64,000 nucleotides of DNA from Ideonella aquatica. Lineage in GTDB: Bacteria; Pseudomonadota; Gammaproteobacteria; Burkholderiales; Burkholderiaceae_C. Each line of letters begins with the position of its first letter. Position 1 is the first letter of the stretch. A model generated the notes under the pieces. It did not search any database, had not been told where the DNA came from, and saw nothing but the letters and a program-made list of their open reading frames with translations. Both the position numbers and the translations under genes were made by a program. The stretch is taken from the NCBI RefSeq assembly GCF_018069755.1, contig NZ_JAGQDE010000002.1, forward strand, positions 372,001-436,000, written 5' to 3'. This document shows, one piece after another, positions 27,584-61,445 of this stretch.

Positions 27584-28240
27584 TCAGGGCTGGCGGTAAT
27601 CGGCCGCCAGGCGGTGCAGGTGATCGCGCTGGGCGGGTTCCAGGTAGGGCTCCAGCAAGCTCAGCACATGCCAGGCGCCGCGCGCCAGCGTGGTGGCGGC
27701 ATGCTCGGCCTCCAGCGCCTTGCGCGGCTCACGCACGAACTCGTAGCTCAGCCAGTAGGTCAGTATCACCACCATCGCCTGCGCGGTGGCCGGGCCGGCG
27801 GGCTGCTGGGCGGGCATGGCGCCGCCGCGCAGCAGGCCGCGCAGCAGGGACTCCACCGCCTGGGTGGTGTGCTTGAGCACGAACTGGAAATGGGTCTCCA
27901 GCCGCCGGTTCTTGCTGAGCAGATCGTTGAGGTCGCGGTAGAGGAAGCGGTGCTCCCAGATCAGCTCAAACAGCATGTGGAAGAACAGCCAGGCGTCCTC
28001 CACATGGCGCACGTCATCGGCGGCGCTCAGCAGCGGGTTCAGGGCCTTCTCGTAGCGGTCGAACAGCGCATTGACCAGCTCGTCCTTGGCCGGGTAGTGG
28101 TAGTACAGGTTGCCGGGGCTGATGCCCATCTCGGCCGAGATCAGCGTGGTCGAGACATTGGGCTCGCCGAATCGGTTGAACAGGTCCAGCGTGACCTCAA
28201 GGATGCGCTCGGCGGTGCGGCGCGGCGGTTTCTTGCTCAT
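27584..28240 (-). CDS. TetR-family transcriptional regulator
   Basis: This 218-residue regulator has the TetR helix-turn-helix near the N-terminus (RILEVTLDLFNRFGEPNVSTTLISAEMGISPGNLYYHYPAKDELVNALF). The long C-terminal domain belongs to a TetR subgroup common in Burkholderiales near lipid genes (WLFFHMLFELIWEHRFLYRDLNDLL). The ligand is unknown. Its position next to the TPR and WS/DGAT genes makes control of the lipid-storage block plausible. No operator is obvious upstream. Confidence 0.85.
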   Translation of the reverse strand: MSKKPPRRTAERILEVTLDLFNRFGEPNVSTTLISAEMGISPGNLYYHYPAKDELVNALFDRYEKALNPLLSAADDVRHVEDAWLFFHMLFELIWEHRFLYRDLNDLLSKNRRLETHFQFVLKHTTQAVESLLRGLLRGGAMPAQQPAGPATAQAMVVILTYWLSYEFVREPRKALEAEHAATTLARGAWHVLSLLEPYLEPAQRDHLHRLAADYRQP

Positions 28241-28315
28241 GGGCCCGCCGAGTATGCACCGGCTTGATGCGCCCTGTTCTAGAGCCTGCTCCCAAGGCGA
28301 CGCTCCAGGACGGCG

Positions 28316-30187
28316 CTACAAGGGCGGCATCGTGTAGCTGCCGTTCAGGCGCAGTGTGCGGTCGCCGGGCAGTTGGCCGCGGGTGCGCTCGGTCAACACG
28401 AGCTCGACGTAGCTCAGCGTGACCACGCCATCGCCGTCTGGCGCCGATACGCTGACCCCGGCGCAGGCCGCCGCGCCCTCGCAGCTGAATCGCTGGCCGT
28501 CGCGGCGGCGGAACACCACGCGGGAGACCACACCGCTGCGGGTCTCCAGCTGCAGGTTGTCCGCCGCCGACCAGTCGGCGCCCTCGCGCCGCACCAGGGC
28601 CGTGCCGATGCTGTAGACCTCGTGGCCCGGGCCGAGCAGGCGGTGAGTCACCAGGTCGTAGACCCCCCACTCGTCCATCGCCGCCTGGCTGGCCTTGCAG
28701 ACCTCGATCAGCAGGCCCTCGTCGCTGGGCTTGGCCAGCACGCCGCCCTCGCCAAAGCCACAGGTGGTGGCGAAGTTCTGCCGCTCGTCCTGCACGGTCA
28801 TCGTCGCGCGCAGGCGCAGGCCCTCGCCGCCGCTGGGCGCACCGGTGGCATCGACGGCGGGCAAGGGCGTGTCGTCGAGCACCACCTGGCGCCAGTCGTC
28901 GGCATCGGCGGCCGACACGCTGACCCCGCTGCAGGCCGCCCCCAGGCAGCGGTGGCTGACCCGATCGGTCTCGCCTTCGCGCTGCCAGACACTCACCGAC
29001 ACCACGCTGCGGTCGGCCACCGTGAGCTCAACACGCCGCGGGTCGGCGCCCTGCAGATCGGTCAGCAGGTAGATCTGGCGCAGACGACCGCTGGTGAAGG
29101 CCGCAGGCGCGTCGCCACAGTAGCCGCTGATGGCCCCGCTGTCGGGGATCAGCCAGACGCGGTTGTCGCTGCACTCCAGCGGCGGAAAACTGCGGCCACC
29201 GGCAGCGGCCAGCAACTGGCCGCTGAGGCGGGCGCTGCGGCCATCGGCGGCCTGCAGCGACAGGTCGGTCAGGTCGATCAGGCGCTCGCCGCGTTCGTCC
29301 GGGGCGCCGATGCGGATCCCGGCGCAGCCGGTGCCGTCGCAGCGCCAGCTCAGCCCCTCGTGCTCCAGCACCACCGAGCTGAGCACGCCGGTGCGCACGC
29401 GCAGCGTCAGCGTGTCGCCAAAGACATCCTCGAAGCGGTGGATCACGGTGTCCAGATCGAGCGGGTCATTGCCGGTCGAACGCGCCTGCGGGCACAGGTC
29501 GCGGCGCTGAGCGTCGCGCAGGACGGCCACGCGCAGGCCCTGGCAGCGGCCGGCCTGGGCCAGCAGTTCAGTGACCAGGCCGGCCATGTCGCGGCCCTGC
29601 GCCGCCAGCGCTGACTGCAGCGACCGCAGGCGGTCAAACATCGGGTCGCCGGCCTGTGGGGTGAAGGCGGTGGTGGTAAAGCTGGCGCTGCCGCGCCAGT
29701 CCAGGCCCAGGCGGCGCCACAGGTGGTAAGCCACCTGCTCCTGCGCGGCCTGGATCTGGGCGTCGGTGACGGCAGGCACGCCGCCCTGGGCGCCCAGATT
29801 CTCGAAGAAGGTGTCGGGATCGGCCTGCAGCAGCTGCGCCACGACCAGCGTGCTCAGCGGCGTCAGATTGGCCACGCCGGGCTGGGTGACCAGGGCGTGG
29901 ACGAAGCGCCCCTCGCTGCGCGCCGAGGCCAGCAGATAGGGGCCTTCCAGCTGGTCCAGCGTCACCTCGTAGGCGGTGCCTGAGAGGATGCTGCTGGCGG
30001 TGCGCGCCAGACCGCTGCGGCCCTTGACGGTGATGTCGATCGAGCGCTGCTCGGGCGCCAACGCGTCGGTGGCGACGCCCTGCATCTGCGGGGCCTCGGG
30101 CAGCGGCGTCTCGGCCGCTGGCCCGCCGCCCCCGCAGGCCGCCACCAGCAGGGATGTCAGCAGAGCGGCCAGCGCAGCGCGGATCAC
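28316..30187 (-). CDS. Lipoprotein with three C-terminal two-cysteine repeats, function unknown
   Basis: The 623-residue protein starts with a lipoprotein signal whose lipobox LVAAC gives the lipid-bearing cysteine, followed by a Gly/Pro-rich linker. The second half contains three related segments around residues 265-330, 395-460 and 550-620. Each has a beta-strand pair, then a C-x4/5-C-x-G motif (Cys283/288, Cys414/419, Cys569/575), then an IxIxAPD-like turn and a D-L-rich strand. I do not recognise the family. It starts with GTG overlapping the upstream gene (GTGA), in an operon behind a TonB receptor and a secreted cysteine-containing protein. A surface-exposed partner role is inference. 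Confidence 0.75.
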   Translation of the reverse strand: MIRAALAALLTSLLVAACGGGGPAAETPLPEAPQMQGVATDALAPEQRSIDITVKGRSGLARTASSILSGTAYEVTLDQLEGPYLLASARSEGRFVHALVTQPGVANLTPLSTLVVAQLLQADPDTFFENLGAQGGVPAVTDAQIQAAQEQVAYHLWRRLGLDWRGSASFTTTAFTPQAGDPMFDRLRSLQSALAAQGRDMAGLVTELLAQAGRCQGLRVAVLRDAQRRDLCPQARSTGNDPLDLDTVIHRFEDVFGDTLTLRVRTGVLSSVVLEHEGLSWRCDGTGCAGIRIGAPDERGERLIDLTDLSLQAADGRSARLSGQLLAAAGGRSFPPLECSDNRVWLIPDSGAISGYCGDAPAAFTSGRLRQIYLLTDLQGADPRRVELTVADRSVVSVSVWQREGETDRVSHRCLGAACSGVSVSAADADDWRQVVLDDTPLPAVDATGAPSGGEGLRLRATMTVQDERQNFATTCGFGEGGVLAKPSDEGLLIEVCKASQAAMDEWGVYDLVTHRLLGPGHEVYSIGTALVRREGADWSAADNLQLETRSGVVSRVVFRRRDGQRFSCEGAAACAGVSVSAPDGDGVVTLSYVELVLTERTRGQLPGDRTLRLNGSYTMPPL

Positions 30188-30987
30188 TTGCAGACGTAGG
30201 CGCTGGCGTAGACCTCGACATCAGGCTGGCCTTCCTCGCCACCCTGGTGCAGGCGCAGCTTGTTGCCCACCTGTGCCGGCTTGATGCCATTGGCGCAGAT
30301 CTGGTGCACCATCATCCACGGCGACCAGGGGCTGCTGAACGAGAAGGGCGGGTTGGCGTCGGGGTCGTCGGCGTTGGTGTCCGAACGGAAGTCGATCCAG
30401 GCGTTGTTGCGGGTCGGGTTCAGGTCACCCTTCTTCGAGCCTGCGTACTCGCCCAGGCCCTTTCGGGTGCGGCCGGCGTACTCCATGTACTTGTAGGCCT
30501 TGGCGGTGGCGGCCGAGGTGCCGTTGTCGACCGTGCCCATGAAGTAGGCGATCTGCGCCGGCTGGTCGGGCTTGATCGCGCGGGTGAAGTCATTGATCTC
30601 GAAGGATTCGCCGGTGCTGCCCCAGTCGGTGCTGTCATTGAGCTCCACCCGGGTGCCCAGGATGTAGCTGTTGCTGCCGTCGCAGACCTGGCTGGTGCCG
30701 GCGCACCAGACCCAGTCGTGCAGCGTGCCGACCTGCACCGTGTTGACGGTGATCGGCGTGGAGGTGGCCTTGATGCGGGTGTAGCCCGGCATGCTGGGCG
30801 AGCCCGGCAGGCCATCGACCTTGCAGGTGCTCAGGTTCGGGTCCTGGGTCTGCTGGCCGCCCTTGCCGGTCTTGGGGTTGCAGACCGACAGCACCGGCGT
30901 GCCGGCATCCGAGACGGTGACCCAGTCGGCCTGGGCGGCGGAGGCGGCCAGCAGCGTGGCAGCCAGGGGGATCAGTCGGTACATCAT
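30184..30987 (-). CDS. Secreted six-cysteine protein of unknown function
   Basis: This 267-residue protein has a clear signal peptide (MMYRLIPLAATLLAASAAQA) and a mature part rich in Ser, Thr, Gly and Asp, with six cysteines (in SVCNP, STCKV, VWCAG, QVCDG, QICAN and the last residues YVCK). An even cysteine number fits disulfides in the periplasm or outside. I do not recognise a family. I chose the start at 30987 because AGGAG precedes it; a larger open frame runs upstream into the receptor gene. It lies between the TonB receptor and the repeat lipoprotein and overlaps the latter by four bases. Confidence 0.75.
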   Translation of the reverse strand: MMYRLIPLAATLLAASAAQADWVTVSDAGTPVLSVCNPKTGKGGQQTQDPNLSTCKVDGLPGSPSMPGYTRIKATSTPITVNTVQVGTLHDWVWCAGTSQVCDGSNSYILGTRVELNDSTDWGSTGESFEINDFTRAIKPDQPAQIAYFMGTVDNGTSAATAKAYKYMEYAGRTRKGLGEYAGSKKGDLNPTRNNAWIDFRSDTNADDPDANPPFSFSSPWSPWMMVHQICANGIKPAQVGNKLRLHQGGEEGQPDVEVYASAYVCK

Positions 30988-31057
30988 GAGCGTCTCCTGT
31001 GGAGTGGACAAAGGCGGCGCGCCAGTGGCGGCCTGGGACAAGAAGCGGTGAAGGGCA

Positions 31058-33838
31058 TCAGCCGGTGCCCCCCCAGTCGATCGTGATGCCGAGCTGGATC
31101 TGGCGCGGTGCACCCGGCGCCACCAGCGTGCTGGGCCGCCAGTCGGCGCTGTTGTAGTTCCAGCCGCTGGGCCCCTGCACGCCGTGGGTGCCGTCGGTGA
31201 AGGGGTTGATGCCCAGGCGGCCGGCACTGGCATAGCGGCGATCAAGCAGGTTGCGCACCTGCAGGAACAGGCTGACGCCCTGGCGCCACTGCCAGCGGGC
31301 ATCCAGGTTGAGCAGCGCGTAGCCGGGCAGGCGGCCCGGCTCGGTGAACGGCCGTCCCGGGTTGACCGGCGCCTGCTGGTAGCCCTCGGCCGGGCAGGAG
31401 GTGAGCGAGCAGTAGTACTGGCCGGTCTCCTGGTCACTGCCGCTGCCCTGGTGGCGGTTGTTCTCGTTGCCGCGTACGAACACGCCTGAGCGCGCCTGCA
31501 GTGCCAGACCCAGCTGCAGCGCCGCCGTGGCCTGCCAGCGCAGCTGCAGGTTCAGGCCATGGCGTGGGATGCCGGGCATCTCGGCGCCGGGCATCACATG
31601 GATCATGCGGTAGGTGCCGTAGCCGCGGTTGAGCGTGGCGCCCGGGGTGGGCAGGCCGGTCTGGCCTTCGAGGTAGCGGTCGTCGCCGCTGCGCGAGTTC
31701 TGGTCGAAATCGGCGCTGCTGTTGCGCGGGCTCAGGGTGTAGAACTCGGACTCGAAGCTGGCGCGGGTGTAGCTGTAGTTGGCGCTCAGCTGCCAGGCGC
31801 CGACCCGGCCGCTCAGGCCCATCTCGGCGCCCTGGCGGCGGGTGCGGCCGATGGTGTCGAAGTAGCTGCGGCCGTCGCCCACGCCGACGAAGTACAGGTC
31901 GTCCTGCAGGTCGGTGCGAAACGCGCTGAGGTTCCATTCCCAGCCCGCGCCCAGCGTGCCGCGTGCCCCCAGCTCGCCCGACAGTGAGCGGATCTGCGGC
32001 AGGTAGGGGTCGCCCGACAGCGTGGTGGGCAGGTTGCAGCCCGGGCCCACCAGGCTGCGCGCGGTCTTGCCCAGCGCCGGGTTGTCGGGGTTGCGCAGCA
32101 CCGGTGTGGGGTCGAAGGCGCAACCCAGTTCCACCACCGACGGCGCGCGTGCGCCTCGGCTGAGGTTGCCGAACACATGCAGCCGCGGCAGCGCCTGCCA
32201 GTTGACGCCCAGCGAGGGATTCAGCGAGCTGTACCTGAACGACTCTTCGGTGATCGTGCGGCCCTGCAGGTAGCCCTGCAGTGGCGCGCTGCCGGTGCGC
32301 AGCTCATGCAGCGCCACGTTGGCCGACGAGGCCCGCACCGCCAGCCGGTTGTCCACCGTGGCGCGGTTGTAGCGCGCGGCGGCGCTCAGGCTGAGCCCGG
32401 GCCACAGCGTCCAGCTGTCGCTGGCGAACAGGCTGACGGTGGTGCTGCGGCCGGCGAAGTCGTTGCCGACGATGTCGTGGCTGGCGGCGTAGTACTGACC
32501 GTCGATCGCCTGCGCGGCGCCCAGCACCTGGCGCGTGGGCGACAGCAGGCCCAGGCGCTGGCTCATCGCGTAGGTGGTGCGGGCGCGGTCGATCGACGCC
32601 CCCACCATGAAGGCATGCGGCCGGGTGTTGCTGTTGAACTGCAGCGCCAGGCCGGTGACCGTCTGGCTCAGGCCGGTGCGGGTCAGCAGGCCGTTGGGCG
32701 TGCCGGCGATGACGCCCGGTCCATCGCCGAAGGCATCGTTGGCGCCGTTGCGCGGGATCGGGATGCGCGGGTCGCTCGGGTCAGGGATGGCGTCGTGCTC
32801 GATGTCGAAGTCATCGAAGCCCTCGTAGATGTCGCCATTGAGGCCGCTGCGGCGGCTGCGGCGCCAGTAGGCCTGCGCGGTCAGGTTGCGCCAGTCGTCC
32901 AGGTCATACTGGCCCGACAGGCCCAGCTGGATCACCGTGTTGTGCGCCTGGTCGGGCGCGCTGAACACGCTGCGCGGCTGGGCCTCGGCCAGCGCCATGG
33001 GCAGCAGGCCGTTGCCGATCAGCGTGCTGTCGGCGGCCAGCAGGCTGCTGGTCAGGCTGCCGCGTTCGCCATGCCAGTCGAGGCGGCCAAAGGCCTGGGT
33101 CACGCGGCTGGGCGAGTGGTCGCGCCAGCCGTCCTCGTCGAAGTGGGTCAGGGCCACGAAGGCGCCCAGGTCCTCGTCGTGCTGGCCCGCGCTGACGCGC
33201 AGCTCGCGCCGGCCAAAGCTGCCGCGGCTGAGGTCGGCCTCCACTCCGGGCGCCGAGAAGCCGCTGCGGCTGCGCAGCGCCAGTGCGCCGCCCAGGGTGT
33301 TCAGGCCGAACAACGGGTTCGAACCGGGGAACAGGTCGAAACGCTCCAACGCGTTCATCGGGATCAGGTCCCAGTTGACGACATCGCCAAAGGGCTCGTT
33401 GACCCGCACCCCATCGAAGAACACCGACAGGCCCTGCGGCGTGCCCACCTGCGGGCTGGCGGTGAAGCCGCGGAAGTTGACGTCCAGCTGGAACGGGTTG
33501 CCGGCGTAGTCATTGATGCTGACGCCCTGCATCTGGCTGTTCATGAAGTCGCCGATGTTCAGCGACCGCGACTGGCGCAGCTCGTCCTGACTGGCGCTTT
33601 GCAGGTGCGCCGGCACCTGGTCGCGCGACAGCGCCAGACCGGGCACCGGGCCGACCTGGATGCGGCGCCGGCCAGTGACCAGCACGCGGCCGATCGGCTC
33701 CTGCACCTGGGCTGTCTCGACCGTGGCCTCGGCCGCCGGGCGCTCCTGGGCTGCGCCCAGGCCCGGCAGTGCGGCCAGCAGGGCCAGGCTCAGGCAGGAC
33801 ACAGGGGGACGAGGGCGGAAAGGACAGGGCATGGGCAC
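31058..33838 (-). CDS. TonB-dependent outer-membrane receptor
   Basis: The 926-residue receptor has a signal peptide ending near GLGAAQ, then a plug domain (RSLNIGDFMNSQMQGVSIND, NPFQLDVNFRGFTASPQVG, GLSVFFDGVRVNEPFGDVVNWDLIP, GSNPLFGLNTLGGALAL) and a long beta-barrel ending LGITIDWGGTG. The conserved plug motifs match ligand-gated porins for siderophores, cobalamin or other scarce ligands. The substrate is unknown and no heme or siderophore genes are adjacent. The GTG at 33838 and the ATG at 33832 are both possible starts. It is the first gene of a three-gene unit, divergent from the ABC exporter. Confidence 0.93.
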   Translation of the reverse strand: MPMPCPFRPRPPVSCLSLALLAALPGLGAAQERPAAEATVETAQVQEPIGRVLVTGRRRIQVGPVPGLALSRDQVPAHLQSASQDELRQSRSLNIGDFMNSQMQGVSINDYAGNPFQLDVNFRGFTASPQVGTPQGLSVFFDGVRVNEPFGDVVNWDLIPMNALERFDLFPGSNPLFGLNTLGGALALRSRSGFSAPGVEADLSRGSFGRRELRVSAGQHDEDLGAFVALTHFDEDGWRDHSPSRVTQAFGRLDWHGERGSLTSSLLAADSTLIGNGLLPMALAEAQPRSVFSAPDQAHNTVIQLGLSGQYDLDDWRNLTAQAYWRRSRRSGLNGDIYEGFDDFDIEHDAIPDPSDPRIPIPRNGANDAFGDGPGVIAGTPNGLLTRTGLSQTVTGLALQFNSNTRPHAFMVGASIDRARTTYAMSQRLGLLSPTRQVLGAAQAIDGQYYAASHDIVGNDFAGRSTTVSLFASDSWTLWPGLSLSAAARYNRATVDNRLAVRASSANVALHELRTGSAPLQGYLQGRTITEESFRYSSLNPSLGVNWQALPRLHVFGNLSRGARAPSVVELGCAFDPTPVLRNPDNPALGKTARSLVGPGCNLPTTLSGDPYLPQIRSLSGELGARGTLGAGWEWNLSAFRTDLQDDLYFVGVGDGRSYFDTIGRTRRQGAEMGLSGRVGAWQLSANYSYTRASFESEFYTLSPRNSSADFDQNSRSGDDRYLEGQTGLPTPGATLNRGYGTYRMIHVMPGAEMPGIPRHGLNLQLRWQATAALQLGLALQARSGVFVRGNENNRHQGSGSDQETGQYYCSLTSCPAEGYQQAPVNPGRPFTEPGRLPGYALLNLDARWQWRQGVSLFLQVRNLLDRRYASAGRLGINPFTDGTHGVQGPSGWNYNSADWRPSTLVAPGAPRQIQLGITIDWGGTG

Positions 33839-33992
33839 GGGCTCGGGCGCACCTCGGCACGAGGGCGGCGACGGCCTGTGGGCCGCGCAAGCATGCTAGG
33901 CGGCGATCCTGGGTTCGGCCGTGGGAAGACTTCCCGTGTCCGCTCAGGGTGTTGCCGGAGCGGGTTGGACCCGCCCCCTAGAATCACGGCCC

Positions 33993-39262: not shown

Positions 39263-41012
39263 GCCGCTGCGGCAGCGGCAACTCTCCAAAAGCCTCCACC
39301 GGCAACACGCACTCGACGCGGCCTGCGGCGTCACGCACCTGGGCCGTGAGCCACGGCCAGGCGCTTTCGCTGGCTTCAATCAGGCCCTGGTTGGGTTCGT
39401 CCCACACGGCATGACTGCCCTTGGGCCCGAGCTGGTGGACGCGCAGCAGCTGGCCGGAGGCGGCGTCCCATAGGCGCAGGGAGTTGTCTCTGCTGGCGGA
39501 GACCACGCGTGCGCCGTCTGGAGAAAAGGCGCAGGCCTGGACTGGGCCCGAATGGCCCACCCAGGTAGCCAGGCACTGGCCGGAGGCGGCGTCCCACAGG
39601 CGCAGGGTGTTGTCATCGCTGGCGGAGACCATGCGGGCGCCGTCTGGAGAAAAGGCGCAGGCCTGGACCCAGTCCGAATGGCCCGCCCAGGTGGCCAGGC
39701 ACTGGCCGGAGGCGGCGTCCCACAGGCGCAGGTTGTTGTCATCGCTGGCGGAGACCACGCGGGCGCCGTCTGGAGAAAACGCGCAGGCCTGGACCGGGCC
39801 CGAATGGCCCGCCCAGGTAGCCAGGCACTGGCCGGAGGCGGCGTCCCACAGGCGCAGGGAGTTGTCCCAGCTGGCGGAGACCACGCGTGCGCCGTCTGGA
39901 GAAAAGGCGCAGGCCTGGACCCAGTCCGAATGGCCCGCCCAGGTGGCCAGGCACTGGCCGGAGGCGGCGTCCCACAGGCGCAGGGAGTTGTCTCTGCTGG
40001 CGGAGACCACGCGGGCGCCGTCGGGAGAAAAGGCGCAGGCCTGGACCCAGTCCGAATGGCCCGCCCAGGTGGCCAGGCACTGGCCGGAGGCGGCGTCCCA
40101 CAGGCGCAGGGTGTTGTCATCGCTGGCGGAGACCACGCGGGCGCCGTCTGGAGAAAAGGCGCAGGCCTGGACCGGGCCCGAATGGCCCGCCCAGGTAGCC
40201 AGGCACTGGCCGGAGGCGGCGTCCCACAGGCGCAGGGAGTTGTCTCTGCTGGCGGAGACCACGCGTGCGCCGTCTGGAGAAAAGGCGCAGGCCTGGACCG
40301 GGCGCGAATGGCCCGCCCAGGTGGCCAGGCACTGGCCGGAGGCGGCGTCCCACAGGCGCAGGGAGTTGTCCCAGCTGGCGGAGACCACGCGTGCGCCGTC
40401 TGGAGAAAAGGCGCAGGCCTGGACCGGGCGCGAATGGCCCGCCCAGGTGGCCAGGCACTGGCCGGAGGCGGCGTCCCACAGGCGCAGGGAGTTGTCTCTG
40501 CTGGCGGAGACCACGCGTGCGCCGTCGGGAGAAAAGGCGCAGGCCTGGACCGGGCCCGAATGGCCCGCCCAGGTGGCCAGGCACTGGCCGGAGGCGGCGT
40601 CCCACAGGCGCAGGGAGTTGTCCCAGCTGGCGGAGACCACGCGGGAACCGTCGGGTGAAAACGCGCAGGCCTGGAGCGGACCGGAGTGGCCTAGTTGGGG
40701 CAGCCACCTGGCGGTGAGGCCAGCGCCGGTCGGTAGGGCACCCTCGCGCGGCGGCCCGTGCCAGGACCGGTTGTGTGGCTGCCCACGGCGTGTCGCCTTG
40801 CAGCACCCAAGTGGCATGGGTGCGAACCTCATCGAACCGCCCCCCGGCCCAATGCACCTGCCGCATCCGGCTGCCCAGGAGCGAGCTGTCTTGCAACTGC
40901 ACCTGAGGCGCCTGCACACGCAACCACTCACAACGATCCAACTGCGCACCTTGCAGGCGGGCCCGGTCCAGCCGTACGTCGTGCCACACGGTTTCGCGCA
41001 GCTCACAGCCAC
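39252..41012 (-). CDS. WD40-repeat sensor, C-terminal frame of the STAND gene
   Basis: This frame carries the WD40 half. Its first 70 residues are an out-of-phase reading of the pentapeptide region; true sequence probably starts near [14 protein letters not shown] (about 40768). Ten 42-residue WD40 repeats (unit [20 protein letters not shown]...[16 protein letters not shown]) span 39432-40691. A 60-residue cap (ending [10 protein letters not shown]) follows. Repeats differ almost only at unit positions 4-5, 23 and 26. Such propellers bind proteins or other ligands and act as sensors in STAND systems. Standing alone it has no start signal that I can support, so it is best seen as the second half of the split gene. 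Confidence 0.7.
39432..40691 (-). repeat. Ten tandem 126-base WD40-coding units
   Basis: The array has ten head-to-tail units of 126 bases, each coding one 42-residue WD40 blade. Copies are nearly identical even at silent sites, which points to recent duplication or gene conversion. Amino-acid changes cluster: unit positions 4-5 are GP, RP or DW; position 23 is W, R or D; position 26 is S, T or N. Combinations in order are GP-W-S, GP-R-S, RP-W-S, RP-R-S, GP-D-T, DW-R-S, DW-W-S, GP-D-N, DW-D-T and GP-R-S. The last unit diverges after SGQ. Confidence 0.9.
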
Positions 41013-43614
41013 TGAAATTGGCGCCCATCAGGTTCAGCGGTTCAGTGGCCGAGCGGCCCTTGAAGGACCAGCCATGCAGGTGGGCACCGCGCATGTCGAA
41101 GCCAGCCAGGCTGGGGCAGGGCCAGCCGCGCCGGTGCGCCAGCAGGGCATAGCGCAGGTGCAACTCGCTGGCCTGGGCCAGGTAGTGTGGTTGCCAGGCC
41201 CTCAGGGTGGCGAGCAGGGCGGGCCCTTCGCCGTCGTCATGTGCTTCTTGCAGGCTCTGCGCCAGAAACTCCAGGGTCTCGTCGCTGGGGATGGGCAGTT
41301 GCCAGAAGGCGCGCTGGCCGATGCGCAAACCTTCCACCAGGTGCTGCGCGAGAAAGTACTCCTGCATCGAGCTGTGGGCAAACCGAAAGCCGCTGCGCAT
41401 GCTGCCGTTGGGGCCGGCCACATCCTCGCGGGCCAGGAAGGTGGCGGTGCGCAACTGCTCTTCCAGCTTCTCCTTGTCGTAGCTGCCGTAGAGCTTCTGC
41501 ATCGCCGGGCGGGAGTCCATCCATTCGTGGAACCAGGCCTCCAGTTCATCGGCGCGCACCAAGCGCTGGCCGCGCTGCCAGGTCCAGGCAGCCAAGTGGG
41601 CCATGAGTTGTTCGGCATGCTGGTCACGCAGCTGCCGCTTGCCTTTGTCTCGGTTCAGCCAGCTGTGGACCATCTGGCGGTATAGAGTGACGCCGTAGAT
41701 TGGGCGGCCTTCAGTGCGCAGGCGCTCAAGTTCAGGTATGAACTGCGTCACCAGCTTGAGCGAAAACGGGCGGCTGGCCAGGTCGCTCAGGTTGTGCACG
41801 CTTTGGATCAGCGCCAGCGTGTTCTCAGCGTCCAGGCCCGGCAGGGCGTGGCGCAAATAGGTCAGCACTTGATCGTCGCGGAAGGGCAGCAGCACCAGGG
41901 CGCGGTAGTCACCGGCTTCGGTGGCACCCCGTCCCTGGGCGGTGAAGTGCGCGTTCTGGGCTTGCAGGGTGCGAAAGTATTGCGTGCGGCAAGACACCAT
42001 CACCCGAGTGTTGGGGTTCCAGTCCTGGCCCGGCTGCGGTCGCAATGCCAGCAGGCCGTTGGTGAAGGTCTGGCCATCGGCCTCACTCAGATGCACCAGC
42101 ACTTCGTCCAGACCGTCGAAGATCCACAGCTGGGCATGGTCGCGGCTGCGCGCCAGGAGGTCTTGCGCACTCGGGTGCGGGTGGGTCTTGGCCCAGCCCC
42201 GCGCGATGCATTCCGTGATGGTCTCTTCCAGTGTGGGGACGTGGTCACGGCCCTTCAGGCCACTGAGCGAGCGCAGGTCAAAGTACAGCGGCAACGGCAG
42301 GCCGGCCTGGCCATCGGCCTCACGCAGGTTCTCAACCGTGCGGGCGAAGCGCTGGCAGGAGATGGTCTTGCCCATACCGTATTCGCCTAGCACCGCGTAG
42401 AGGGGAGGGGCGCTGCCGTCGCGCAGCCAGGCCAGCAGGTCGTCCAGTACCAGCACACCGGCCTCGTTGTCCGCCTCCGCGTTGGCGGACTGCAGGGCGA
42501 CAGTCTTGCGTTCACTGAAGCAGGTGCGCGTGCCGCGAGGATCTTCAACTTCGTAGGGCAGACCATCCACGTCATTCACCATGTGACCGGCCTTGGGTAG
42601 CCTGAACTGCGGTGCCTGGGCGAGCACCGTCGGCGTGCCAAAGGCTGCCCCCGCCGGCGGCATTGAGGGCTGGTTTGGGTGACCCCCGCCGCCTGAACTG
42701 GCGGGGAGGCGATCGGCGTAGCGGTCGAGCACGCGGTGGATCTGGTCGCGCAGGCCTTGCACCCATTCCTCGCGTTTTCGGCCACGCTCGGCAAAGGCCT
42801 TGTGATCAGGGTAGAAGATCTGGCGTGTCTTCAGACCCTGCGTGTCGATGTTGTTCAGGTCCAACCGCCTGAGCGCTACCGGCACGGCGCGTTTGCCGGG
42901 AGCAGTGCGCAGATTGCCGTCGATGAAGGCAGGCACCTCGTGCTTGCGGATGTAATCGCGCGAGAAGAAGTTTTCGCTCAGCGCGAGCAGGCCCAGGTGG
43001 CATTCGGCCAGCGCGGTCTGGATGTGCTGGTCCCAGTCATCGAAGGTCAGGATGTTCGTGTCGCGCCAGGGCACGAAGTGGTAGCGGTCGGAGTTGCCCA
43101 GCACCGTGCAAAGCTTTCGGAACAGGTCGTCGGCGTCCTTGCCGTCGTCGTGCGCGTAGCTGAAAAACCACTTCACCACTGGCTTGCCGGCATGCCATTC
43201 CGTCAGCGCGATGCGCGGTTCGTTCATCGGCATGCCGCGCGCGTCGTTGACCAGGCGGTCTTGCTCGCGGGCCAGCTCTGGCGTGGTGTGCTGCACGTCG
43301 AGCAAGGCCTCCCCTTCAAACCACACGGTACGGGCGTCGCCCTCGGAGCGCGCGTCGCTCACTGCGATCCGCACGGGCAGGTTGTGGGCTTCGGCCAATT
43401 CATTGAAGCGCTCTCGCAAGCGTTTGAACGCTTTGGTGCGGGCTTCCTGGGTGGGGCTGCTGGCGAACAGGCTGTTCAGCACCGCCTGCTGGTCGGTATG
43501 GCCGGTCGCACCCACCAAGGAGGCCATCGTGTCCAGGCGCTTTGCGTCAGTGGTGCCCAGCTCTGCGGCCAGCTTCTGCAGGTACACGCCGAGGTGTTGT
43601 GCGGTGAGGTTCAT
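40117..43614 (-). CDS. TIR-NACHT STAND NTPase, N-terminal frame
   Basis: This open frame holds the effector and switch parts. Residues 1-145 are unassigned. TIR spans about 147-270 (VVKWFFSYAHDDGKDADDLF; the ALSENFFSRDYIRKHE segment contains Glu226, a candidate NADase glutamate). NACHT follows about residue 385, with Walker A GEYGMGKT at 410-417 and Walker B LWIFDGLDEV at 496-505, then a helical arm to about 790. A pentapeptide-like stretch lies at about 835-920. After about residue 946 the frame reads the WD40 DNA out of phase, giving Arg/Pro-rich sequence that is not likely real protein. GAGG precedes the ATG. TIR-STAND proteins are known or suspected anti-phage sensors. Confidence 0.8.
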   Translation of the reverse strand: MNLTAQHLGVYLQKLAAELGTTDAKRLDTMASLVGATGHTDQQAVLNSLFASSPTQEARTKAFKRLRERFNELAEAHNLPVRIAVSDARSEGDARTVWFEGEALLDVQHTTPELAREQDRLVNDARGMPMNEPRIALTEWHAGKPVVKWFFSYAHDDGKDADDLFRKLCTVLGNSDRYHFVPWRDTNILTFDDWDQHIQTALAECHLGLLALSENFFSRDYIRKHEVPAFIDGNLRTAPGKRAVPVALRRLDLNNIDTQGLKTRQIFYPDHKAFAERGRKREEWVQGLRDQIHRVLDRYADRLPASSGGGGHPNQPSMPPAGAAFGTPTVLAQAPQFRLPKAGHMVNDVDGLPYEVEDPRGTRTCFSERKTVALQSANAEADNEAGVLVLDDLLAWLRDGSAPPLYAVLGEYGMGKTISCQRFARTVENLREADGQAGLPLPLYFDLRSLSGLKGRDHVPTLEETITECIARGWAKTHPHPSAQDLLARSRDHAQLWIFDGLDEVLVHLSEADGQTFTNGLLALRPQPGQDWNPNTRVMVSCRTQYFRTLQAQNAHFTAQGRGATEAGDYRALVLLPFRDDQVLTYLRHALPGLDAENTLALIQSVHNLSDLASRPFSLKLVTQFIPELERLRTEGRPIYGVTLYRQMVHSWLNRDKGKRQLRDQHAEQLMAHLAAWTWQRGQRLVRADELEAWFHEWMDSRPAMQKLYGSYDKEKLEEQLRTATFLAREDVAGPNGSMRSGFRFAHSSMQEYFLAQHLVEGLRIGQRAFWQLPIPSDETLEFLAQSLQEAHDDGEGPALLATLRAWQPHYLAQASELHLRYALLAHRRGWPCPSLAGFDMRGAHLHGWSFKGRSATEPLNLMGANFSGCELRETVWHDVRLDRARLQGAQLDRCEWLRVQAPQVQLQDSSLLGSRMRQVHWAGGRFDEVRTHATWVLQGDTPWAATQPVLARAAARGCPTDRRWPHRQVAAPTRPLRSAPGLRVFTRRFPRGLRQLGQLPAPVGRRLRPVPGHLGGPFGPGPGLRLFSRRRTRGLRQQRQLPAPVGRRLRPVPGHLGGPFAPGPGLRLFSRRRTRGLRQLGQLPAPVGRRLRPVPGHLGGPFAPGPGLRLFSRRRTRGLRQQRQLPAPVGRRLRPVPGYLGGPFGPGPGLRLFSRRRPRGLRQR

Positions 43615-59399: not shown

Positions 59400-61445
59400 G
59401 TGAAGACCCGCGACCCCGCCCTGGACACCGACCCGACCGCCCTGCAGCCGATGCTGGTGCCGGGTCTGGATGCCCTGACCGACTGGCGCCTCGCGCTGGA
59501 GCGCGACCTGGACGCGCTGACCCGCTTCCTGGTCGAGGGCGAGTTGCTCTCCAGCTCGGCCCTGCAAACCGCCCAGTCCCTGCGCCAGCGCCTGGCCAGC
59601 GACAAGCTGGTGGTGGCCTTCGTGGCCGAGTTCTCGCGCGGCAAGAGCGAGCTGATCAACGCCATCTTCTTTGCCGATGCCGGCCAGCGCGTGCTGCCGG
59701 CCACGCCCGGCCGCACCACCATGTGCCCGGTCGAGCTGAGCTGGGACGAGCAGGAGCTGCCCACGCTCGATCTTCTGCCCATCGACACCCGCCGCGAAGG
59801 CATCTCATTGGCCGAGTGGCGCCGCCAGCGCGAGCGCTGGCACCGCGTGCAGCTGGACCCGTCCGACATGGCGGCGCTCTCGCGCGCGGTGGTCGAGGTC
59901 ACCGCCACCCGCCATGTCAGCATCGATCAGGCGCGCGCGCTGGGCCTGTGGTCCGACGAAATCGGCGCCGACAACCCGCCGGTGGCCTCGGATGGCCAGG
60001 TCGAGGTGCCCGCCTGGCGCCACGCCATCATCAACTTCCCGCACCCGCTGCTGCAGCGTGGCCTGGTGGTGGTCGACACCCCGGGCCTGAACGCGATCGG
60101 TGCCGAGCCCGAGCTGACCCTGGGCCTGCTGCCCAGTGCCCATGCGGCGCTGTTCGTGCTGGGCGCCGACACCGGCGTCACCCGCTCCGACCTCGACGTC
60201 TGGACCCAGCACCTGGGCGGCCAGGGCCTGAGCTGCTTTGTCGTGCTCAACAAGGTCGACACCCTGGCCGACCCGCTGGCCACCGAGGAAGACCGCGAGG
60301 CCGCGATTGAGCGCCAGTGCGTCAACACCGCCGAGACCCTGCACATCGACCGCGACCGCGTGTTTCCGGTGTCGGCGCGCATGGCACTGACCGCCCGCCT
60401 GGAGGGCGATGCCGAGCGCCTGAGCGCCAGCCGGCTGCCGGCGCTGGAAGCCGCGCTGACGCAGAACCTGCTGCCGCAGCGCCAGCGGCTGCTGGGCAAG
60501 ACGGTGATCGGCGGCGTGCAGTCGCTGCTGGAGCACGCCACGCGCCGCCTGCGCGACCAGCGCCGCCACAATGCCGAGCAAATGCTCGAGCTGCGCGGCC
60601 TGCGCGGCAAGAGCCAGGGCCGCGTCAACCAGATGCTCACCCGGGTGCGCGCCGACACCACCGAGTTCGAGCGCTGCACCGCCCGTCTGTCGGCGCTGCG
60701 TGCCGTGCACGCGCGCATGCTGCGCGGCACGCTGCGCTCGCTCTCCTCTGAGCGCGTGCGCGAGGCGGTGAACGCGCTGCAGCAGACCCTGGGCAGCAGC
60801 TGGTTCAACCTGCGCGCGCGCGCCGCCTTCGGCGAGCTGTGCCAGCGCCTGGTGGCCCACATCGACAAGGCCGCCCACGACTGCACCGAGATCGGCCAGA
60901 TGCTCGAGGCCTCGTTCCAGCAGCTCAACGCCGAGTTCGGCTTCTCGCTGGTGCTGGAGCCTGCGCCCGACCTGGCGGTCTTCCGTGAGGAGCTGCAGCT
61001 GATCGAGCGGGGCTATGCGCGCTACTTCGGCGTCACCCGCATCGTGCGCATGACGCAGGACGGCTTCAATGAGCAGCTGCAGCGCATGCTGGTGTCCAAG
61101 CTGCGCACCGTGTTCGAGACCGCGCAGGGCGAGGTCGAGGCCTGGAACCAGGCCGCCTCGGCCATGATCGACGGCCAGTACCGCGAGCGGCGGCGCAGCT
61201 TCAAGCGCCGCGCCGAGGCGCTGGAGCGCATCCTGCAGGCCACCGGCGAGCTTGAGCGCCGCCTGGCTGAGGTCGAGGCCCAGGACCAGCGCCTGCTGGC
61301 GCAGGTGGACCAGGCCTATGACCTGGGCACCGCGGTGCGCCAGCGCGCCGAGCGCGGCCCGGCGGCGCTGCCCTCAGCCACCGGCCGCAGCCCGCTGACG
61401 CTGGTGCGCAGCGACGGCGCCATGGCCCCGTCGCGCCGCGCGTGA
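59400..61445 (+). CDS. Dynamin-family GTPase
   Basis: The 681-residue protein has a dynamin-like G domain: P-loop AEFSRGKSELIN (Lys82), G3 DTPG at 226-229 and G4 NKVD at 284-287. Long coiled helices follow (residues about 375-520 and 600-660), as in bacterial dynamin-like proteins that remodel membranes. No transmembrane segment is obvious. Its role is unknown; it sits between mutM and mutY, and its stop overlaps mutY (GTGA). The GTG start is 18 bases after mutM. Confidence 0.88.
   Translation: MKTRDPALDTDPTALQPMLVPGLDALTDWRLALERDLDALTRFLVEGELLSSSALQTAQSLRQRLASDKLVVAFVAEFSRGKSELINAIFFADAGQRVLPATPGRTTMCPVELSWDEQELPTLDLLPIDTRREGISLAEWRRQRERWHRVQLDPSDMAALSRAVVEVTATRHVSIDQARALGLWSDEIGADNPPVASDGQVEVPAWRHAIINFPHPLLQRGLVVVDTPGLNAIGAEPELTLGLLPSAHAALFVLGADTGVTRSDLDVWTQHLGGQGLSCFVVLNKVDTLADPLATEEDREAAIERQCVNTAETLHIDRDRVFPVSARMALTARLEGDAERLSASRLPALEAALTQNLLPQRQRLLGKTVIGGVQSLLEHATRRLRDQRRHNAEQMLELRGLRGKSQGRVNQMLTRVRADTTEFERCTARLSALRAVHARMLRGTLRSLSSERVREAVNALQQTLGSSWFNLRARAAFGELCQRLVAHIDKAAHDCTEIGQMLEASFQQLNAEFGFSLVLEPAPDLAVFREELQLIERGYARYFGVTRIVRMTQDGFNEQLQRMLVSKLRTVFETAQGEVEAWNQAASAMIDGQYRERRRSFKRRAEALERILQATGELERRLAEVEAQDQRLLAQVDQAYDLGTAVRQRAERGPAALPSATGRSPLTLVRSDGAMAPSRRA

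Follow-up and report, generated by a model that had tools for sequence, protein, structure and literature searches.

Which task is shared by an outer-membrane receptor, a small exported protein and a cysteine-rich lipoprotein that are encoded side by side in Ideonella aquatica? The window, a stretch of 64,000 nucleotides, carries the three genes in tandem on the minus strand. A TonB-dependent receptor (TBDR, 926 aa; 31058-33838, (-)) precedes an exported six-cysteine protein of a new family (267 aa; 30184-30987, (-)), here given the working name Sec. The TBDR stop and the Sec ATG are separated by 70 bases, and the motif aggag precedes the ATG. The lipoprotein gene (623 aa; 28316-30187, (-)) starts with GTG and overlaps the Sec stop as GTGA. 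This layout had been given with exact coordinates, gap and overlap in a first-pass annotation, which interpreted the three genes as an operon that could capture a ligand at the cell surface. The cassette is real, conserved and outside every family tested. It is of a TBDR-plus-surface-partner type with two new protein families.

The gene unit and its distribution

The TetR gene flanking the cassette is present in 8 of 16 genomes of the genus, its own included (E≤1e-60), and the site was fetched in the other seven. TBDR, Sec and lipoprotein had no match in any of these seven stretches (tblastn, E≤1e-10, above 45% identity). Six congeners have both flanks readable, and in all of them the TetR and ABC genes adjoin without the cassette, so that the three genes behave as one unit. 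The aligned ends are 60-77 bases apart in five congeners, and G1029 has about 1 kb between them. The contig of the seventh genome, G1032, stops 131 bases past TetR. The flank alignment with the two closest relatives (G1019 and G1031) stops at window position 28235 and resumes at 33976. The block missing from their empty site (28236-33975, strand not applicable) thus contains the three genes only.

Close Sec relatives are rare. With the single protein as query, four genomes out of 300 from the order contained Sec, and in a set of 369 genomes of the class the own genome alone did. The alignment A1 detected it in 2/398 genomes of the phylum, 2/16 of the genus and 5/200 of the family, all Sec counts including the own genome; a search of plasmids gave no match. 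TBDR matches at E≤1e-150, a threshold chosen by the analyst, occurred in the same five family genomes as Sec, two of them in one genus. Receptors of the wider group occur much more often than close Sec: 63 of 300 genomes of the order hold a TBDR relative at E≤1e-60.

The three genes do recur together elsewhere. A single locus unites TBDR, Sec and lipoprotein in nine genomes: the own genome, G1020, G1077, G1091, G1195, G1205, G058, G016 and Derxia lacustris. The gene order varies while the content is kept: the lipoprotein leads in G016, separates TBDR from Sec in G1091 and G1195, and comes last in the window. The arrangement is beyond chance because nine genomes share the locus and the block is lacking in the two closest relatives. 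Together with the empty sites and the Sec/TBDR co-occurrence, the shared loci bear out the earlier proposal of a functional unit. At least one tandem Sec pair, combining a two-cysteine and a six-cysteine type, is present in seven of the nine three-gene genomes; a single Sec stands in the window and in G1020. In eight of the nine, but not at the window, the lipoprotein profile gave one more match, a partial one of about 320-350 aa. Several of these repeat proteins have an N-terminal membrane helix, as judged by eye. The trio is not obligatory, because the second locus of the own genome (G000:C33) has two lipoproteins without Sec, and G025 and G116 are Sec-positive without a lipoprotein match.

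In Derxia gummosa, three small genes lie just upstream of the cassette (L016, 6241-8114) and appear by eye to be truncated or group-3 globin-like. A search of the open literature found no paper on D. gummosa and TonB. Elsewhere in the 64-kb window, a 1165-aa protein (40117-43614, (-)) with Pfam NNH6, TIR, NACHT and pentapeptide domains is a candidate anti-phage NACHT-TIR protein, for which PADLOC gave weak ThsB/TIR rows (E 3e-5). The adjoining 246-aa frame (39380-40120, (-)) has no PADLOC match. A bacterial dynamin-like protein (59400-61445, (+); Dynamin_N, E 6.6e-16) matches LeoBC weakly in PADLOC (E 1.2e-13).

Receptor, exoprotein and lipoprotein

The TBDR belongs to the TonB-dependent receptor superfamily, with both Pfam domains above the curated cut-offs: Plug at 49.5 bits (cut-off 23.9, E 6.6e-13) and TonB_dep_Rec_b-barrel at 139.1 bits (cut-off 27, E 5.2e-40). 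An STN domain was not listed for it in Pfam at E≤5. The second TBDR of the own genome is 54% and 62% identical to it in two matched parts, and is followed by two tandem lipoproteins of the cassette's family (L055, 8524-15492), with no Sec at this locus. Its sister in the receptor tree is a G016 receptor that likewise adjoins two lipoproteins (SH-aLRT 96). Since both pair with two lipoproteins, TBDR and lipoprotein form a pairing of their own.

Across the tree of 33 receptors, the Sec label required 4 changes versus 11.4 in shuffles, none of 500 being as low. All 16 Sec receptors fall within one group of 24 (SH-aLRT 100), and none is among the other nine. The test is biased in favour of Sec clustering because many receptors were included after Sec had been found; it omitted the second receptor of L132 and the G116 receptor near Sec, whose sequence is truncated in the fetched stretch. 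Of 17 regions fetched around TBDR relatives from the order-wide set (E≤1e-60), four are in genomes already known to hold Sec. A divergent Sec stands beside the receptor in five (L131, L133, L137, L139, L144). It was not seen in the other 12, among them L132, whose contig stops 490 bases past the second receptor. PEP-CTERM scores above the Pfam cut-off on six of eight divergent Sec proteins beside TBDRs. The remaining two, both in L137, are without it and resemble the G025/G116 type. On the window Sec, Pfam gave no PEP-CTERM match at E≤5. No paper tying PEP-CTERM, TonB-dependent receptor, exosortase and operon together was found in the open literature.

Genes for a histidine kinase and a NarL-type response regulator often lie in the vicinity of related TBDRs (L131, L132, L133, L134, L143, L145, L146); two regulators and two kinases were profile-checked (L131, L134), the others assigned by eye. 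In G116, TBDR relatives lie directly 5' of a protein of about 1200 aa (L142, 2580-10177; L141, 3204-11008). The L142 protein combines an autotransporter beta-domain with a Cds6 C-terminal domain, another pairing of receptor and secreted protein.

Sec has a signal peptide, recognized by eye, and cysteines at positions 36, 55, 95, 102, 231 and 266. It matched no Pfam or NCBIfam family at E≤5, and among PDB sequences thrombospondin alone at E 0.83-2. The AlphaFold2 model from the family alignment (23 sequences) is all beta, with a pLDDT of 89.6 and a pTM of 0.87. A Foldseek search gave nothing at E≤0.001 (best E 0.077), and a second structural comparison reached Z 6.5 with unrelated sandwiches; there is neither a confident fold nor a claim of a new one. 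Sub-cut-off Pfam rows in two divergent Sec proteins, DUF1412 (E 0.0011) and P3_C (E 0.014), were taken as chance. Only N132, D203 and S222 are invariant in 18 aligned members. Histidine is wholly missing from 3 of 31 Sec proteins, which disfavours a conserved histidine ligand of any kind. Judged from the sequences, the acidic stretch from D203 to D210 (window numbering) could be a candidate cation site.

The lipoprotein carries the lipobox LVAAC at Cys18 and twelve further cysteines. Cys18 and all but one of the twelve do not vary across ten relatives; the exception, C357, is kept in at least 90%. The first-pass annotation had correctly recognized paired-cysteine repeats, of which there are three with four cysteines each. 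It had also placed both small partners outside known families. This holds in that neither has a Pfam or NCBIfam match at E≤5 and profile searches linked neither to a well-known unrelated family, but one part of the lipoprotein matches a solved domain. In the model of the whole protein (pLDDT 82.6, pTM 0.58), residues 33-215 (29543-30091, (-)) superimpose on the non-heme domain of Geobacter PgcA (9i0d) with Z 15.4, an rmsd of 3.5 and 21% identity over 166 aligned residues. Foldseek gave E 2.8e-4 and the sequence profiles E 4.6e-9 and 1.7e-9. On this agreement of profile and model, the N-terminal domain is homologous to the PgcA non-heme domain. The 9i0d construct is a D208A D212A mutant. In the lipoprotein family D181 is invariant and D185 nearly so, with the same spacing, from which we infer that they correspond to D208 and D212 of PgcA.

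The first cysteine repeat (residues 217-332; 29192-29539, (-)) resembles the barrel of TbpB by structural ranks only. Ranks 2-18 of the lipoprotein's structural list are 17 TbpB entries (Z 7.0 to 4.4, about 100 residues aligned, rmsd 3.6-4.3), while rank 19 is unrelated at Z 4.4; TbpB entries are numerous in the PDB and fill a match list more easily. The likeness is one of fold only, because it stays below Z 8 and the profile comparison gave no sequence support. The second and third repeats (residues 341-621; 28325-29167, (-)), with four conserved cysteines each, yielded weak structural rows only, the third reaching Z 4.4.

Secretion context and known systems

Sec genes occur near secretion genes in two relatives. 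In G116, two Sec genes are followed by T2SSG, T2SSF, T2SSE and secretin genes. The order in G025 is sigma factor, FecR, STN-containing TBDR, Sec, RTX protein, two ABC proteins, TolC-type protein, Sec and secretion genes, the last like those of G116 and assigned by eye. A layout of sigma factor, FecR and receptor accompanies ligand import and signalling in FecA-type systems. G025 resembles these signalling receptors in its STN domain, sigma factor and FecR; the window TBDR differs in having no STN match. Of ten Sec genomes, seven have a gspD match above the cut-off, and the own genome is one of them. Slam is the known exporter of TbpB-type lipoproteins. Slam (PF04575) was detected in 2 of 10 Sec genomes and not in the own genome, so that Slam export of the cassette proteins was rejected for it. 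No clear Fur or Zur box was found at the window, the best matching 11/19 (p 0.04) and 8/18 (p 0.975) positions among 36 tests with some rough start positions. Neither these nor a match of 12/19 at the second locus (p 0.01), from the same 36 Fur/Zur tests and start positions, are counted as evidence.

By the features tested, the cassette is not a TbpAB, Slam hemophore, ZepA or SusCD system. It shares with TbpA/TbpB the combination of TBDR and lipoprotein, and the best structural likeness of its first repeat, below Z 8, is to a TbpB barrel. It differs in the three repeats on a PgcA domain, the added exported protein and the absence of Slam from the genome. The lipoprotein did not match the transferrin-binding families of Pfam and NCBIfam at E≤5, and the TBDR reached 53 of 324 bits with TIGR01786. 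HphA of Acinetobacter is described as a hemophore secreted by a Slam protein and acting with the TBDR HphR (PMC8560813). The combination of secreted protein and TBDR is similar, but the genome of the cassette has no Slam and Sec no conserved histidine. ZepA is described as an exported zinc exoprotein containing a beta-sandwich and PEP-CTERM, with TBDT genes in its neighbourhood (PMC10957091). Divergent Sec proteins share PEP-CTERM with ZepA, while the window Sec does not. Zinc binding of the ZepA type was rejected, the motif H-X2-9-H-F/Y-H occurring in 0 of 31 Sec proteins. SusC/SusD was likewise rejected: TIGR04056 was not listed for the TBDR at E≤5, the lipoprotein had no SusD match, and the Sec model is all beta, SusD being helical. 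PgcA is characterized in two papers as an outer-membrane-anchored protein reaching the cell exterior (PMC11520253, PMC5732950). The cassette lipoprotein shares its N-terminal non-heme domain. PgcA, however, is an extracellular cytochrome with CXXCH haem domains, whereas the lipoprotein has cysteine repeats and no CXXCH motif.

A proposed capture-and-uptake system and its rivals

There is about an even chance that the cassette is an outer-membrane system for ligand capture and uptake, with an exoprotein, a TbpB-like co-receptor and presumed location, contacts and import direction as follows. The lipoprotein would be anchored in the outer membrane by its lipid and act as a surface co-receptor, in which three domains stiffened by disulphides, the first of them TbpB-like, sit on a base of PgcA type. 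Sec would be exported and serve as an extracellular ligand-binding or ligand-delivering partner, acting as a scavenger. The TBDR would be the gate that imports the ligand with TonB energy. As a first guess, the ligand is a complex of a metal or cofactor, either by itself or carried by a protein.

Uptake is favoured by the gene unit and its recurrence, the PgcA homology, the TbpB fold likeness, the all-beta Sec, PEP-CTERM on divergent Sec, the sigma factor, FecR and STN-TBDR that accompany Sec in G025, and the receptor-tree clustering. Counting against it are the TbpB likeness of Z 7.0 at best, the missing confident Sec fold, the absence of Slam, the non-obligatory trio, a G016 Sec apart from any TBDR, the 12 of 17 relatives' regions without Sec and the lack of a clear Fur or Zur box. 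Surface ligand capture, as proposed in the first-pass annotation, is therefore supported in part: the architecture, as predicted from sequences and models, appears to fit through the TbpB-like barrel and the PgcA domain, and through PEP-CTERM and FecR control in relatives.

The same surface features may be read differently. Sec and lipoprotein might be adhesive or matrix proteins, with the TBDR sensing or shaping the surface instead of feeding the cell. PEP-CTERM on divergent Sec, the resemblance of the Sec model to adhesins and other sandwiches (Z about 6), and the RTX and autotransporter neighbours of related TBDRs agree with this. It is nevertheless unlikely, as the sandwich matches are unspecific and a TbpB-like repeat paired with a TBDR is better suited to uptake. 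The strict neighbourhood of Sec and TBDR, in a cassette without an exporter and a genome without Slam, also suits a TBDR that is the exit door by which Sec crosses the outer membrane. A precedent is Oar of Myxococcus xanthus, which is reported to be needed for PopC to cross this membrane (PMC6434023). Yet the T2SSG/F/E and secretin genes beside Sec in G116 and G025 offer another exit, gspD is present in the own genome, and the FecR control seen in G025 suggests that a ligand is sensed, all of which make an export door quite unlikely.

It is distinctly unlikely that Sec and lipoprotein are periplasmic and help to fold or receive something for the TBDR. The missing exporter and Slam fit such a location, as do the further repeat proteins in eight of the nine three-gene genomes, several with a membrane helix by eye; PEP-CTERM on divergent Sec and the origin of the PgcA domain in an exported protein speak against it. 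In G016:C15, one strand carries PQQ-dehydrogenase-like and cytochrome-like genes, Sec and, at some distance, a TBDR and two lipoproteins (L018, 311-13008; L105, 14427-19414). A service to PQQ-dependent alcohol oxidation, in which PQQ, a related cofactor or a lanthanide chelate is taken up, would accord with this one Sec and the pair of lipoproteins behind PQQ-dehydrogenase (one of three above the family cut-off) and cytochrome c genes, the Sec being the one apart from any TBDR. The solved chains closest to the window TBDR by sequence are YncD (E 3e-13) and PqqU (E 5.3e-13), and a more distant TBDR group is near beta-propellers close to TIGR03866 (225 and 216 bits versus a cut-off of 287). But G016 is one metagenome-assembled genome, no PQQ-type genes are among those scanned beside the window cassette, and the TBDR scores 67 bits with the PqqU model versus a cut-off of 1200, its best reported match covering one region of about 200 residues. 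Such a service to PQQ-dependent oxidation is accordingly very improbable.

Extending the capture-and-uptake reading to the relatives, a TBDR clade of this order may, tentatively and on balance doubtfully, constitute with its own Sec exoprotein family a modular, Slam-independent uptake class for a ligand new to such uptake. For the display of Sec at least three modes would exist. It could be free and dock on a barrel lipoprotein that is TbpB-like and PgcA-based, be sorted by exosortase via its PEP-CTERM, or be tied to FecR control and an operon for type II-like secretion.

As partners of one receptor clade, two nameless protein families gain a testable role. If uptake is the correct reading, TbpB-like co-receptors exist without Slam, and therefore another surface route for such lipoproteins should exist. 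The PgcA non-heme domain would then have a second, unrelated setting for study, and PEP-CTERM proteins would acquire a concrete role as extracellular partners of nutrient receptors.
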